Part shown: positions 170-5,265 of the stretch, piece by piece
Layout of the letters: the number at the start of each line of letters is the position of its first letter
Position numbering within the stretch: position 1 is the first letter of the stretch
NCBI GenBank assembly: GCA_014885115.2
Contig: WKLE02002441.1
Span: 4,887 to 31,603 of the forward strand
Length of the DNA: 26,717 bases
Source of the DNA: Asterionellopsis glacialis
Lineage: Eukaryota; Bacillariophyta; Plagiogrammaphyceae; Rhaphoneidales; Asterionellopsidaceae
Reading direction: 5' to 3'
Translations under genes and position numbers: made by a program
Notes under the pieces: model-generated
Database searches by the model: none
Seen by the model: the letters and a program-made list of their open reading frames with translations, nothing else
What the model was told of the DNA's origin: nothing

Positions 170-348
170 ACTGACATTTATTTACTGTGTATAGGACAAC
201 TTTAAAATACTACCGCCTGGTACATCGTGTTTGCTACTTACTTTCTACTAGGATCTAGTCTATTTAAGACCTCGGACTTGGACCTACAGTTGAAATCTGT
301 CCCAGCTGGCTGGATTATCAATTATTATTATAAATAATTGATGTTTAA

Positions 349-649
349 CCTGGTAGAATACTGTACCTGCTACTGTAATATGGTTACCCGGTACCTGGTA
401 CAGGTACCTCTGGTACCAGTATACCTGGTACCCCGTACCAGGTAATAAAAATAAGATCACGTACTGGTACGGACTCCCTGCTGCTGGTACCGTACAACTA
501 CCTGTTAGGCGGCACCCTGCGACCTAAAAAAAAGAAAGATTCGCCCGCTTGCTTGATCTGTTTCTTACTGGTATTGTATGTACGCAGCATGTACCCAGGT
601 AGGACCTACTAGGTACAGGTAGCGTACCATTACGGAGTACCTGGTAGGA
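349..649. repeat. palindrome cluster 1 (GGTACC-type), upstream of the ARD gene
   Basis: About 300 bp composed largely of GGTACC, CTGGTAC, GTACCAG and TACCTGTTAGG words on both strands. A perfect hairpin lies at 422-444: 10-bp arms TACCTGGTAC / GTACCAGGTA around CCC. The word TACCTGTTAGG at 499-509 recurs at 2381 and 2537. The cluster ends about 110 bp before the ATG of the acireductone dioxygenase gene. The rest of 170-348 is AT-rich and shows nothing I can name. Confidence 0.8.
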
Positions 650-758
650 TTTAAGAACTACGTTGACTAGACTTGTGATTTCAGAAAGAGGCCGTGCATT
701 CACAACGGCACGCTCGAAGTGTGTTATCATTCAAAAAAACGAAGTAACGTTGAATCCA

Positions 759-1457
759 ATGACTGACACCACAACTTCGAAGGATCCTTCTACCGATCCA
801 CCTCCCGAAAAGAAGCCCAAGAACATGATGGAACAAGCCCCCGAAGAGGAATGGCCTGAGGCCTGGTTGATGCCCGAAGGTGAATGTAAGGATCAGAAAG
901 CTGCCAACAAACGTGAGCCCAACGTCCCAGTTTCTGCCGCTGACATGAAAAAATTAGGCATTTGCTACTGGAAGATGGATGCTGATTCGTATAAGTACCC
1001 CACGAAGGCTATCCCCTACGACCCCAAGGATGCTGTCGATCCCAAGTTATCTCAACTTCGTGACGATCGCGGCTATTCTTACGCTGATATCATCACTGTC
1101 CATCCCGATCATTTGCCTGGATTCGATGATAAAATTAAGGCTTTCTTCGAAGAACACATTCACGATGCCGAAGAGATCCGATACATTTTGGGAGGTTCCG
1201 GATACTTTGACGTTAGAAACCTTGATGATCAATGGCTTCGTGTCCATGTTAAGAAGGGAGATCTTATGACCTTACCCGAAGGTATTTACCACCGTTTCAC
1301 TTGCGACGAGAAAGATTTGATTCATGCCATGCGCCTTTTCATTGGACAGCCTGTTTGGACACCCTTCAATCGCCCTTGTGATGAGCACGTCTCAAGGAAG
1401 AAGTATGTCGAAGCTTTTGAGGCGAAGACTATTTCTGATGAAAAGAAGGAAGAGTAA
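759..1457 (+). CDS. ADI1: acireductone dioxygenase (ARD), cupin family
   Basis: A single exon encodes 232 aa. ARD oxidises the acireductone 1,2-dihydroxy-3-keto-5-methylthiopentene, with Fe giving the keto-acid precursor of methionine in the methionine salvage pathway. The protein opens with a polar, Pro/Lys-rich tail (1-30), then WLMPEG at 36-41, close to the family's usual start. The cupin metal ligands are visible: HIHDAEE gives His133, His135 and Glu139, and GIYHRF gives His178. GSGYFDVR (147-153) is the expected turn before the next strand. I chose the ATG at 759; the frame is open further upstream to 663 but only from a TTG, and the extra residues do not resemble the family. There is no plastid or signal presequence, so it is probably cytosolic. 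The C-terminus is Lys/Glu-rich. Palindrome cluster 1 lies directly upstream. Confidence 0.95.
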   Translation: MTDTTTSKDPSTDPPPEKKPKNMMEQAPEEEWPEAWLMPEGECKDQKAANKREPNVPVSAADMKKLGICYWKMDADSYKYPTKAIPYDPKDAVDPKLSQLRDDRGYSYADIITVHPDHLPGFDDKIKAFFEEHIHDAEEIRYILGGSGYFDVRNLDDQWLRVHVKKGDLMTLPEGIYHRFTCDEKDLIHAMRLFIGQPVWTPFNRPCDEHVSRKKYVEAFEAKTISDEKKEE

Positions 1458-2122
1458 GAAGATAAACCTTTACTGTAGAAAGCATGTTAATCTAATATCC
1501 AAACCACGTCATGTTGTTTTTTGAAATTAGAGATTCAGAAAAGACCGAGAAATATGTACTGATTGGTATCATAACAAATATTTGATTACGTTACTTATAT
1601 CAACCATGCGATCTGCTTTCAATGTTGCAGAAAATAACGTTATCATTTTTACAGTAGTTTGCGAACTGAAGCAAATCGAAAGCTTTCCTTAGTTTTCCTT
1701 GGGCTTTTTTAAGATATGAGCAAACGTCTACATACTGAGCCAAAGAAATGTTCTTTGTGTCATTAGATCCTACAGGTTGGTCCTAGGCTATTGATATTGC
1801 GTTTCCTAGACTAAGAACCTTTAAATAATGAAGTGGAAAGGTTTTGGCTAAACAGCAGGAATTGAAGATTGCTCAAGTCCTAATTTCACAACTCTAGAAC
1901 AGAAGGAAGAACTCTGCAATAGGTGTCTTTCGTGTTCATGGCGGGAGGAGAATCAGAGGTCCAATAACCTAACAGGTAACTGGTTTCAGTCTGCTAAACA
2001 GTTATTGAATATGAGGTATAAGGGCCGCATCAGTGAAGACTTGCTCTACTAGAGAGTTCTGTTGCTAAAGCGGTATGAAATAAAAAATTCAAGAACCAGG
2101 CACGAAAGAAGCAAAAGGAAAC
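1458..2122. other. intergenic region, no gene seen
   Basis: This holds the 3' untranslated region of the ARD gene and the downstream flank of the tRNA. I see no coding frame of substance. Runs of T on the minus strand at 2116-2113 (T4) and 2087-2082 (T6) follow the tRNA and would serve as RNA polymerase III terminators. Confidence 0.5.
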
Positions 2123-2201
2123 TCCGTAGTCAGGCGCCTTACCATTGGGCCAACAAGTCATAGTGAAACCTGCCCGGGATTCGAACCCGGAATCTCCTGA
2201 T
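2123..2201 (-). tRNA. tRNA-Arg(ACG), circularly permuted gene (3' half before 5' half)
   Basis: On the minus strand the order is: A38 plus anticodon-stem 3' strand TCAGG (2200-2196), variable loop AGATT (2195-2191), T arm CCGGG-TTCGAAT-CCCGG (2190-2174), acceptor 3' strand GCAGGTT (2173-2167), discriminator T2166, a 6-nt spacer (2165-2160), acceptor 5' strand GACTTGT (2159-2153), TG, D arm GCCC-AATGGTA-AGGC (2150-2136), G26, anticodon-stem 5' strand CCTGA (2134-2130), loop CTACGGA (2129-2123) with anticodon ACG at 2127-2125. The swapped halves rebuild a complete 72-nt cloverleaf: the acceptor stem pairs over 7 bp (4 Watson-Crick, 3 G-U) and the anticodon stem perfectly. Box A (TGGCCCAATGG) and box B (GGTTCGAATCC) are intact but in reversed order. 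Leader GAAAC (2213-2209) can pair with trailer GTTTC (2122-2118) beside the presumed splice junction (37/38). Oddities: discriminator U, and G1-U72. Maturation would need end-joining at the anticodon loop, then cutting of the spacer. Confidence 0.85.
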
Positions 2202-2295
2202 TTCTGATGTTTCGATGCCAGGAGGTGTGTCATCAAAATATATGAACGCTGCACATTTAATCGTGCATTCTCTAAAACTGCTCGGGTGCAGTTGC

Positions 2296-2576
2296 TACCG
2301 GTCCTCTACCTGGAAGAGGTCCTACCAGGTACCGGTACAGGGTAAGGTCCTCTAGAGGACTACCTAGTACCGGTACTAGGTACCTGTTAGGGCTCTACCT
2401 GGTACTAGAGGTAGAGTCCCTGTTACCTAGAAAACCAACGTCTAGGTTAATATCGGTAACATTTCAACCTACTGAATACCCAGTATGTAGCTGCGGTAAC
2501 TGGTACCTTGGCTTTTAGCCGTCAAGATACCATACGTACCTGTTAGGACCTACCGTAGGTACGGTACCGGGTACAA
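2296..2576. repeat. palindrome cluster 2 (GGTACC / CTAGAGG type)
   Basis: Two perfect palindromes abut: GTCCTCTAGAGGAC at 2347-2360 and a 22-bp one at 2361-2382 (arm TACCTAGTACC). They are followed at once by TACCTGTTAGG (2381-2391), repeated at 2537-2547. Many partial copies of GGTACC, AGGTCCTAC and CTACCTGGTAC surround them. The cluster sits between the permuted tRNA (minus strand) and the coiled-coil gene (plus strand), so it is upstream of both. From 2577 to 2865 I see only A-rich presumptive promoter and 5' untranslated sequence. Confidence 0.8.
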
Positions 2577-2865
2577 AAGGACGTCAACCAGAACACAAGA
2601 AACAACCCAGAAACATCCAGAAACGCGATTTAAATAAAGTTTTCAAAGCTTGAAGCAGTGAAGCATTTTATTCGTGTTATCTTTTTTTTTGGTCAGGAAC
2701 GCAACGACGAAAAAAGAACAAAGAACGATTGAAAATAGAAAATAAATCACACCAATAGGAGGACTCGCTTACCAACGCTGCGCTAAAAGTCTCACATCTT
2801 TTACTCTAACAAGTCTGAAGGTACATCTTTACTTACGACCACCTTCAAATATCAAACACACCATC

Positions 2866-3234
2866 ATGCCAACCAGAAGACTTTTCAAATTCAGAAAGAC
2901 AGAGGCCGTCGATAAGAATACTGTTGTTTTCAAAAAATCTGATGGAAAAATCACTGAAGTTTCAGTAGCATGTGTTAAGAAGAGCGAATTAGTTACAGAC
3001 CCAACTAAAGGGCAACAAGGACAAGATCATATCATATTGGATCCATCACAATTTCGATCCATGTTAAAAGAGCGTGACGCTCAAATTTTGTCATTAACAA
3101 ATGAAGTTGAACAACTTAGAACAAAGTTGGAAAAGTTGGAAACCCAAGCCCAAGCCTGCCGTTGTGGCGCACATCAAAATTCAAGTAGTAGAGATGGACC
3201 AAACATGAAATGGAAGCATTCCCTGTGGAAGTAG
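2866..3234 (+). CDS. small coiled-coil protein, function unknown
   Basis: An ATG-initiated single-exon frame of 122 aa. The N-terminus is basic (MPTRRLFKFRK). Residues about 62-96 form an obvious heptad coiled coil of the leucine-zipper type (FRSMLKERDAQILSLTNEVE and on), ending at a Cys pair, CRC (98-100). The zipper recalls, at the level of general pattern only, the N-terminal dimerisation helix of cGMP-dependent protein kinases, but there is no kinase domain here. The tail is Ser/Asn/Lys-rich and ends in a Trp-containing basic stretch. An AATAAA lies 21 bp after the stop, supporting this as the real 3' end. It converges with the sugar porter gene. I do not recognise a family; it could be a dimerising adaptor or a truncated paralogue. 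Confidence 0.6.
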   Translation: MPTRRLFKFRKTEAVDKNTVVFKKSDGKITEVSVACVKKSELVTDPTKGQQGQDHIILDPSQFRSMLKERDAQILSLTNEVEQLRTKLEKLETQAQACRCGAHQNSSSRDGPNMKWKHSLWK

Positions 3235-3362: not shown

Positions 3363-5265
3363 CTAAAGTAAAAGCTGTACCGATTCCTTGCTTTCGGGTC
3401 CAATTTCTGTTTCATTCTCGTCTGTATCCTTATCACTGTCCACAGCAAGTAGTATTGATTTGTCATTAGCAACAACTGCGAAATGGTGTGCCATTTCTTC
3501 TAAAGATTTGCCCTTGGTTTCAGGGAGGTGTGTCACAAAGAACGCCAAAATTGCTAGGCAAGTACAGGCTAAAAACAAAAAATATCCACCCCATGATAAC
3601 CAATTGGTCAAGGTAAGAATTGATGATGTGACCAATGTGCCAGTTAATCGATTCATGAAGGTTGTGGTACTAATGGCTTTGGCGCGGATTGTTGTTGAAA
3701 AGATTTCACTGGGAATCACCCAACCTAATGGTCCTAATCCAAGTGAAAAAAATGATACATAAATTGCCAGACCGATAATGACTTTCGTAGGACTACTAAC
3801 CTCTGCAAAGAAGTCTGATGCTATCAAAAGTAATGCAACTGTGCATCCTGTGTATACAAGAAAGAAACGAATATTCCATGAGATACGTGAAAAAAATATG
3901 ACCAATTATACATCAAGTTGGGGGGAGGCGCAAGTACAGGTGTGACACTTACCTGATAATGAAATGAAAATCATCGGTCTACGACCAAAATTGTCAAATA
4001 AGGGTGCCGCAACGAAGATGCATGCAAGTTTCAGCAAACCTAGTCCAGTCTTTTTTAGTCGAAACGATAAACAAAAAGCAATTGTAATCAAAATGAGGAT
4101 CAACATGATGAATCGTGCACTGTTCTAATTTCCAACACCCCAAAGCGATACGTACCAAAAACATACTTTGATGTCTACGTCCATGTATACCAGCTTCTTC
4201 CATGATGAACACCAAGTAATATTGAATTGCATCGATACCGCTCATTTGTTGTGAAATAGCAGTGCCAATACCAACTATGAGCATTTTCTTTACTGCCGGT
4301 GAGGGGAAGAAAATGGCATCCCAACCAACACGACTATTGAGTCTTCTTTCTTCTTCCATATCATCCTTGATTTCTTCAAGTTCTTCTTGGATATTGTATC
4401 CCGCAGGATGAAGTCGTTTGAGGACAGCTAGTGCTTCTTCTTCTCTATTTTTTTGAACCAGCCAACGTGGACTTTCTGCCATAACAAGCCATGCTAATAA
4501 GACCATTATAACAGGCATGATCATACCTGTAGCAAACATATAACGCCAAGCACGATTGGGTGGGAGTGGATAAAAGAAGAATCCGACAACAAACCCAATT
4601 ACAATACCAATATTAACCCCAATTTCAGCCCATGATACTAGTTTGCCACGATGTGATTTTGGTGATATTTCACTTATATACATTGGTCCAATAGATAAAC
4701 CAAATCCAACTCCCAAGCCTACAAATATGCGTCCAAACATAAGGGTAGCATATGATTGACTTAACACCATGACAAGGATACCCAAAATGAAACCGATAGA
4801 CGCTACACCGAATGAAACGCGTAATCCATATCGATTTGTAATTCGTGATGACGTAATGGCACCAACGATAGCAAAGAGATTAATACTACCCATGAACAAT
4901 TCAAGATGAACATCCGATAAACCCATTGAATTTTGTACAAGTATACCAGCATCCGTATTTACACCAATATCAAATCCTAAATTGCATGAATTTAGAGCTG
5001 CACAACCTGTTAACAAGTAAACGTAGGGCGGTATACCCGAAAGATATTCGGTGTTACTACTGCGAGTTGATGAGGAAGGAGATATCGATGACTCTTGCGA
5101 AATGGCTAAAGTACCATAATTCATTCCATTTTGTTCACTAGACGAAGGTGGACTGTGACTACCATTCGACGAGACACCATTATTGGTAATGGGTTTGAGA
5201 TCTTCACTGACAGTGGTACTTGAAGTATTATAACTACTCAAGATTCCAGTTATTCTCTTGAACAT
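3363..5265 (-). CDS. MFS sugar/polyol porter, three exons
   Basis: Exons 5265-4156, 4049-3953 and 3847-3363 join to 563 aa. The introns are 4050-4155 (GTACGT...AG, phase 0) and 3848-3952 (GTAAGT...AG, phase 1). Splicing restores continuous family sequence on both sides (LLKLACIFVAAPLFDNFGRR, then SLSG-CTVALLLIAS). It belongs to the sugar porter family of the major facilitator superfamily, with about 12 membrane segments. Motifs seen: GRIFVGLGVGFG (178-189), PMYISEISPKSHRG (194-207), AESPRWL (263-269), QQMSGIDAIQYY (339-350), NFGRRP, PSEIFSTTIRAKA (448-460) and PETKGKSLEEM (511-521). The QQ-SGIDA motif resembles plant polyol/monosaccharide H+ symporters; the substrate cannot be read from sequence. 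A Ser-rich cytosolic tail of about 75 residues precedes the first helix, and an acidic tail follows the last. Likely in the plasma membrane or another membrane. Confidence 0.93.

Follow-up and report, generated by a model that had tools for sequence, protein, structure and literature searches.

Three circularly permuted tRNA-Arg(ACG) genes in a genome that is probably a diatom's

The window, by which we mean the whole stretch of 26,717 nucleotides analysed here, carries on its minus strand, at positions 2124-2201, all parts of a tRNA-Arg(ACG) gene with the 3' half placed before the 5' half. Read along the minus strand from 2201 to 2124, the 3' half (tRNA positions 38-73; 2166..2201) opens with A38 at 2201 and continues through TCAGG (39-43), the variable segment AGATT, a T-arm composed of CCGGG, TTCGAAT and CCCGG, and GCAGGTT (66-72), which runs to 2167 and is followed by T73 at 2166. 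The spacer CACTAT (2160..2165), which links position 73 to position 1 and is predicted to form the acceptor loop of a circle, leads into the 5' half (tRNA positions 1-37, anticodon ACG; 2124..2159), which extends from G1 at 2159 to G37 at 2124 as GACTTGT, TG, GCCC, AATGGTA, AGGC, G, CCTGA and CTACGG. On the same strand the leader ends in GAAACATCAGAA (2202..2213), where a G at -3 could pair with C32 and the motif GAAAC could do so with the trailer. The trailer AGTTTCC and a TTTT terminator that starts at +8 occupy 2113..2123. Upstream of the 3' half, 41 nt before A38, lies an TATATTTTGAT element (2232..2242, minus strand) that agrees in 11 of 11 letters and also precedes many ordinary tRNA genes of this genome.

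The preliminary description of this DNA had proposed a minus-strand tRNA-Arg(ACG) with its 3' half first, and both direct reading and the outcome of rotation bear this out. Rotated into the conventional order, the halves are called tRNA-Arg(acg) by ARAGORN, keep the conserved tRNA bases (U8, R15/Y48, GG18-19, U33 and TTC54-56, as read from the sequence) and include an intact anticodon arm that holds U33 and ACG. The acceptor stem expected between the inner ends is a full 7 bp, though three of its pairs (1-72, 4-69 and 7-66) are G-U. Without CCA, the minimum-energy fold of the rotated tRNA is the cloverleaf; with CCA appended, ViennaRNA favors a different fold. The expectation that standard tRNA finders would pass over the locus was also correct, in that the window as it stands draws no call from ARAGORN and none from Rfam at gathering thresholds. 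The circularly permuted gene order at this locus is confirmed.

The genome searched (40.3 Mb in 1503 contigs) contains three permuted tRNA-Arg(ACG) genes on three contigs, namely the window copy (L001) and one copy each on C1021 and C211. The 35 nt of the 3' half plus T73 and the 36 nt of the 5' half are letter-identical in all three (L001, L002 and L003), whereas the spacers that follow T73 read CACTAT, CAAATAT and CGTCCT (6, 7 and 6 nt). When the 3-kb loci are compared with one another, likeness is limited to 83-100 nt around the gene, and all else consists of 11-21 nt matches at E 0.77 or worse. With surroundings this unlike, the three genes are therefore neither haplotypes of one locus nor a single assembly error, which speaks against the assembly join of two tRNA fragments that had been named beforehand as a result capable of undoing the claim.

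A DNA query of the assembly, which may be incomplete, with the rotated sequence returns no contiguous tRNA-Arg(ACG), the unpermuted copy for which a search had been proposed; its six matches, all six of them, are halves of the three permuted loci. Each Arg locus holds one copy of each half, with no matching outer 5' half upstream and no matching outer 3' half downstream, as a test for tandem pairs reveals. The same kind of DNA search recovered a Leu gene at 82% identity, so that a contiguous Arg(ACG) gene of moderate divergence would be expected to surface if the assembly had one. We base the absence of an ordinary Arg copy on this DNA search because a whole-genome search with RF00005, in which 63 of 1479 candidates were scored and 62 matches obtained, missed at least one ordinary gene, a tRNA-Leu(AAG) at C435:20827-20897 (L084) that scores 54.9 bits with RF00005 and is absent from the whole-genome list. 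Isoacceptors that are absent from that list, such as Cys and Thr(AGT), therefore cannot be called missing. Single-tRNA DNA queries for further permuted genes, using the genome's own Leu(TAG) and Thr(CGT), yielded the ordinary Leu(AAG) gene and nothing else new. ARAGORN also reports an Asn-like tRNA with a two-base anticodon in L059 and L015 (both C1203), likely a pseudogene.

A permuted-tRNA covariance model was constructed from 22 of the 29 distinct class I tRNAs of the same genome, rotated at 37/38 and supplied with random 8-nt spacers. As the preliminary description had suggested that the locus be rotated and scored, we note that the window copy reaches 56.9 bits with this model (E 1.6e-14), alongside its ARAGORN call; the three Arg loci together score 56.9, 58.6 and 57.1 bits. 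Such a score alone does not prove permutation, because two ordinary Arg(TCG) genes arranged head to tail (L005) attain 52.8 bits. The order of the Arg genes is settled instead by the rotated query, which matches each half once per locus, 3' then 5', at three places. Over 65 sources the permuted model gives 118 matches at E <= 10, the best of which, once the permuted copies are set aside along with the tandem pair of L005/L017, scores 30.2 bits.

Exact permuted patterns occur neither in viral_contigs nor in genome_contigs (0 matches in each), and a relaxed pattern picks out six bacterial stretches. As relatives these candidates were set aside: in L085, L086, L088, L089 and L090 the matched stretch overlaps an ordinary tRNA gene, and the sixth, L087, is a tRNA-like RNA. 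The best permuted-model scores among the bacterial loci are 47.8 bits (L087) and 39.3 bits (L085, an ordinary tRNA array). In L087, from Actinoallomurus iriomotensis, two tRNA-like RNAs in permuted order (3681-3737 and 3819-3896) score 32.4 and 47.8 bits (model R1). A 249-aa ORF lies upstream of both, the 8 kb of this locus contain no tRNA gene according to ARAGORN, and the second matches Rfam YrlA at 26.2 bits, under threshold; these RNAs are possibly bacterial Y RNAs.

A second isoacceptor shares the permuted order. Three permuted tRNA-Ile(UAU) units, all on C441, were located with the permuted covariance model in L078 at 3910-3996, 4305-4400 and 4510-4605, one isolated and two as a 205-bp tandem, with scores of 60.0, 56.9 and 56.9 bits. 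The spacer is 14 nt long in the isolated unit and 23 nt in both tandem units, and the rotated Ile sequence is an ordinary tRNA that has a U-U mismatch at 6-67. A DNA search of the genome for other tRNA-Ile(UAU) genes returns these three permuted units only. ARAGORN reports an Ile(tat) gene with a 109-nt intron, a call that we reject, as with the permuted model it spans the 5' half of one permuted unit and the 3' half of the next. The middle halves of the array could be read as an ordinary tandem, but a T5 run follows each Ile 5' half, at +11 or +12, and its presence inside the supposed 109-nt intron speaks against the intron reading. The Ile joint is less clear than that of the Arg genes, as a cut before A37 (36/37) would place G at -3 and yield A37, whereas a strict 37/38 cut would leave G37 and A at -3. 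A37 is usual in such tRNAs.

The signals that flank the permuted genes were then compared with those of ordinary tRNA genes. The TATATTTTGAT consensus was chosen by eye from the upstream regions of tRNA genes. At 9 or more of 11 letters it occurs in 23 of 60 upstream regions of ordinary tRNA genes, against a background of 41 of 1440 80-mers from the same loci, and at the full 11 letters in 10 of 60 against 1 of 1440. Two of the three Arg copies (the window and L002) match the element in full, at 41 and 43 nt before A38; in L003 8 of 11 letters agree and in the three Ile copies 7, 8 and 8, a level found in background as well. Ahead of the Arg 5' half, each of the three copies matches at best 5 of 11 letters. 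The T-runs noted downstream are also present: TTTT starts at +8 in the window copy, as a T-run does in all three Arg copies, and 56 of 61 ordinary genes have a T-run within 20 nt. Taken over all six permuted copies, T4 or T5 stands at +8 to +12 after the 5' half in every one, and T4 inside the body in none. Two of the Arg genes therefore have their signals placed as for a single transcript, upstream of the 3' half and downstream of the 5' half. Upstream T-runs also occur, inside the TATATTTTGAT element at -37 (L001) and -39 (L002), and in the Ile leaders, where a T5 run at -30 or -32 would stop transcripts started further upstream.

One line of support offered previously, the pairing of leader GAAAC with trailer GTTTC, does not hold. 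The complementarity is present at the window locus, but 1074 of 5000 shuffles equal it when the register is left free, and across the six permuted copies the leader-trailer helix is equalled by 266-3119 of 5000 shuffles. Swapped leader and trailer partners often pair as well or better. Leader-trailer covariation as a sign of compensatory change was accordingly dropped, since shuffles, swapped partners and random genomic pairs give equally long helices. The L001 and L002 precursors fold into the permuted form, and the minimum-energy fold of the L003 precursor is another one (-32.7 vs -27.4 kcal/mol, a gap of 5.3). Of the splicing-endonuclease motif (BHB or a relaxed form) looked for at the junction, C32 and a G at -3 are found together in three of three Arg copies, and in the Ile genes only with a cut before A37.

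Because the only tRNA-Arg(ACG) genes found have swapped halves, closure of a circle is likely needed for a working tRNA. We regard it as highly probable that the window locus is a permuted tRNA-Arg(ACG) gene, one of three copies in a likely diatom, whose transcript would have to close into a circle to give that tRNA. From its sequence we infer that the RNA of the window locus is transcribed, cut, circularized and charged, and a route can be proposed. RNA polymerase III would start downstream of the TATA-like element and produce an RNA comprising leader, 3' half, 6-nt spacer, 5' half, trailer and T-run. In the folded precursor the outer parts would pair to form the anticodon stem, and the acceptor stem would enclose the spacer. 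Cuts by the tRNA-splicing endonuclease after G37 and before A38 would follow, with leader and trailer acting as the ends of an intron; C32 could pair with the G at -3, an arrangement shared with the 15-nt tRNA-Tyr intron of this genome. A splicing ligase, RtcB or a Trl1-like enzyme, would link G37 to A38 and so generate a circle, from which RNase P and tRNase Z would take out the spacer before CCA is added. The tRNA-Tyr(GTA) gene itself (L053 142-230, on C550) has its intron at 37/38, possesses C32 and a G at -3, and is miscalled Ile(gat) by ARAGORN.

Candidate enzymes for such a route are encoded in the genome. Two genes exceed the cut-off for tRNA_int_endo; a piece of one resembles an EndA-like protein with a solved structure (E 2e-5), and the other, a 482-aa endonuclease candidate (L070), finds no relevant sequence match among solved structures. 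RtcB is matched with a best E of 1.8e-102; its three pieces lie on one contig, and an aligned stretch contains one TAG, from either an intron or a break. A possible Trl1-like ligase is hinted at as well, by one piece whose match to the tRNA ligase CPD domain is at the cut-off, and Trl1 homologues are described in diatoms in PMC4090602. The RNA ligase family PF09511 gives 0 matches in the genome, and its controls likewise give 0.

A permuted gene could also mature without passing through a circle, if the acceptor loop were opened by RNase P and tRNase Z before the base-paired halves were joined at 37/38, or if halves from different copies were joined in trans. Neither the order of cutting nor the choice between cis and trans follows from the sequence, but circular intermediates were found for the permuted pre-tRNAs of red and green algae, as PMC3978253 relates, and we judge this course improbable. 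Still less probable, to the point of being very unlikely, is a non-functional relic, whether left behind when two tandem ordinary tRNA genes each lost the outer half or created by the joining of two fragments in assembly. The near-equal score of the ordinary tandem pair in L005 would suit such an origin, yet at three loci the halves are kept letter for letter between differing spacers and surroundings, each locus keeps its T-run, the rotated-sequence DNA query yields no further Arg(ACG) gene, and Ile(UAU) displays the same order of halves.

The remaining alternative, to which we assign almost no weight, is a YrlA-type Y RNA (RF02553) with a role outside translation, whose tRNA-like domain presents T-arm, acceptor-like stem and D-arm in the order seen at the window locus. 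YrlA is indeed the best Rfam match of this locus, at 19.9 bits, and it matches two of the three Ile copies at 29.6 and 24.5 bits, but all of these scores lie far under the gathering score of 69, and the other two Arg copies (L079 and L080) produce no YrlA match at E <= 0.5. In the account of PMC8394870, YrlA lacks an anticodon arm and has instead a long basal stem and a partner of the Ro type, whereas the window locus has the full arm, U33 and ACG included, and gives a tRNA on rotation. Ro/TROVE (PF05731) has 0 matches in the genome, with the control positive in 1 of 14 genomes.

The surmise that the host is probably a diatom is supported by silicon transporter exons in the genome (best E 7.3e-82) together with U20 in the permuted Arg tRNA. 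Position 20 was assigned by hand; one Arg(TCG) gene has U20 and the other C20, and the nuclear tRNA-Arg of the diatoms examined in PMC8975779 carry C20 and/or U20. The window also includes a Tic110 gene (E 9e-16). Elsewhere in the window, the intergenic stretches 340-660 and 2290-2580 are seemingly rich in GGTACC, TACCGGTA and CCTGGTA motifs (by eye, uncounted).

Permuted tRNA genes as such are known; the lineage is probably a new one for them. They are described from a red alga, green algae, chlorarachniophyte nucleomorphs and one archaeon in PMC3978253, PMC4494063 and PMC12633428, the latter two of which add a further nucleomorph and a green alga to the list. The tally in PMC3978253 counts 34 such genes from algae and one archaeon, with neither Arg(ACG) nor Ile(UAU) among those it covers. 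For diatoms or other stramenopiles, the preliminary description knew of no permuted tRNA gene, and we likewise found no report in the literature searched, which largely excludes subscription papers and preprints and hence is no proof of absence.

A close likeness is to Cyanidioschyzon merolae as portrayed in PMC3978253, where the 3' half likewise comes first, a T-run follows the 5' half, most genes have a TATA-like element upstream, and the type II genes share the junction at 37/38. Spacers in that alga are also short, 7-74 nt compared with 6, 7 and 6 nt after T73 in the Arg copies. There, 11 of 43 genes are permuted, including Arg(CCT) at 59/60; here, in a likely diatom, the permuted isoacceptors are Arg(ACG) and Ile(UAU), with three copies each. 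In the prasinophytes Ostreococcus and Micromonas and the Bigelowiella nucleomorph, according to PMC3978253 and PMC4494063, all but one of the permuted genes are type II (37/38), with spacers of 5-64 nt; the set given in PMC3978253 consists of Ser, Cys, Leu, iMet, one Asn and one Arg(TCT), and lacks Arg(ACG) and Ile(UAU). In the green alga Auxenochlorella, permuted genes came to light after an ordinary tRNA scan had returned an incomplete set (PMC12633428).

In the eight window ORFs (2154 codons), CGT and CGC account for 46 of 73 Arg codons and ATA for 8 of 100 Ile codons. A tRNA with anticodon ACG would read CGT and CGC. We lean toward a broader reading, held with less confidence than the permuted Arg gene itself, in which all Arg(ACG) and Ile(UAU) genes are permuted and the decoding of CGU/CGC and AUA, because of this, would depend wholly on tRNAs made by way of RNA circles; these genes would have multiplied by dispersal (Arg) and tandem duplication (Ile), and permutation would be stable and spreading in stramenopiles rather than a relic. 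Two permuted isoacceptors in six copies, in what is probably a diatom, would bring permuted tRNA genes into the stramenopiles and make the supply of a much-used arginine tRNA subject to circularization. Standard scanners would misreport permuted genes, here through a false 109-nt intron, and tRNAs that seem to be missing from diatom gene lists may be hidden ones. The origin of permuted genes, whether from the red-algal plastid ancestor or anew, would then become testable on sequenced diatoms.
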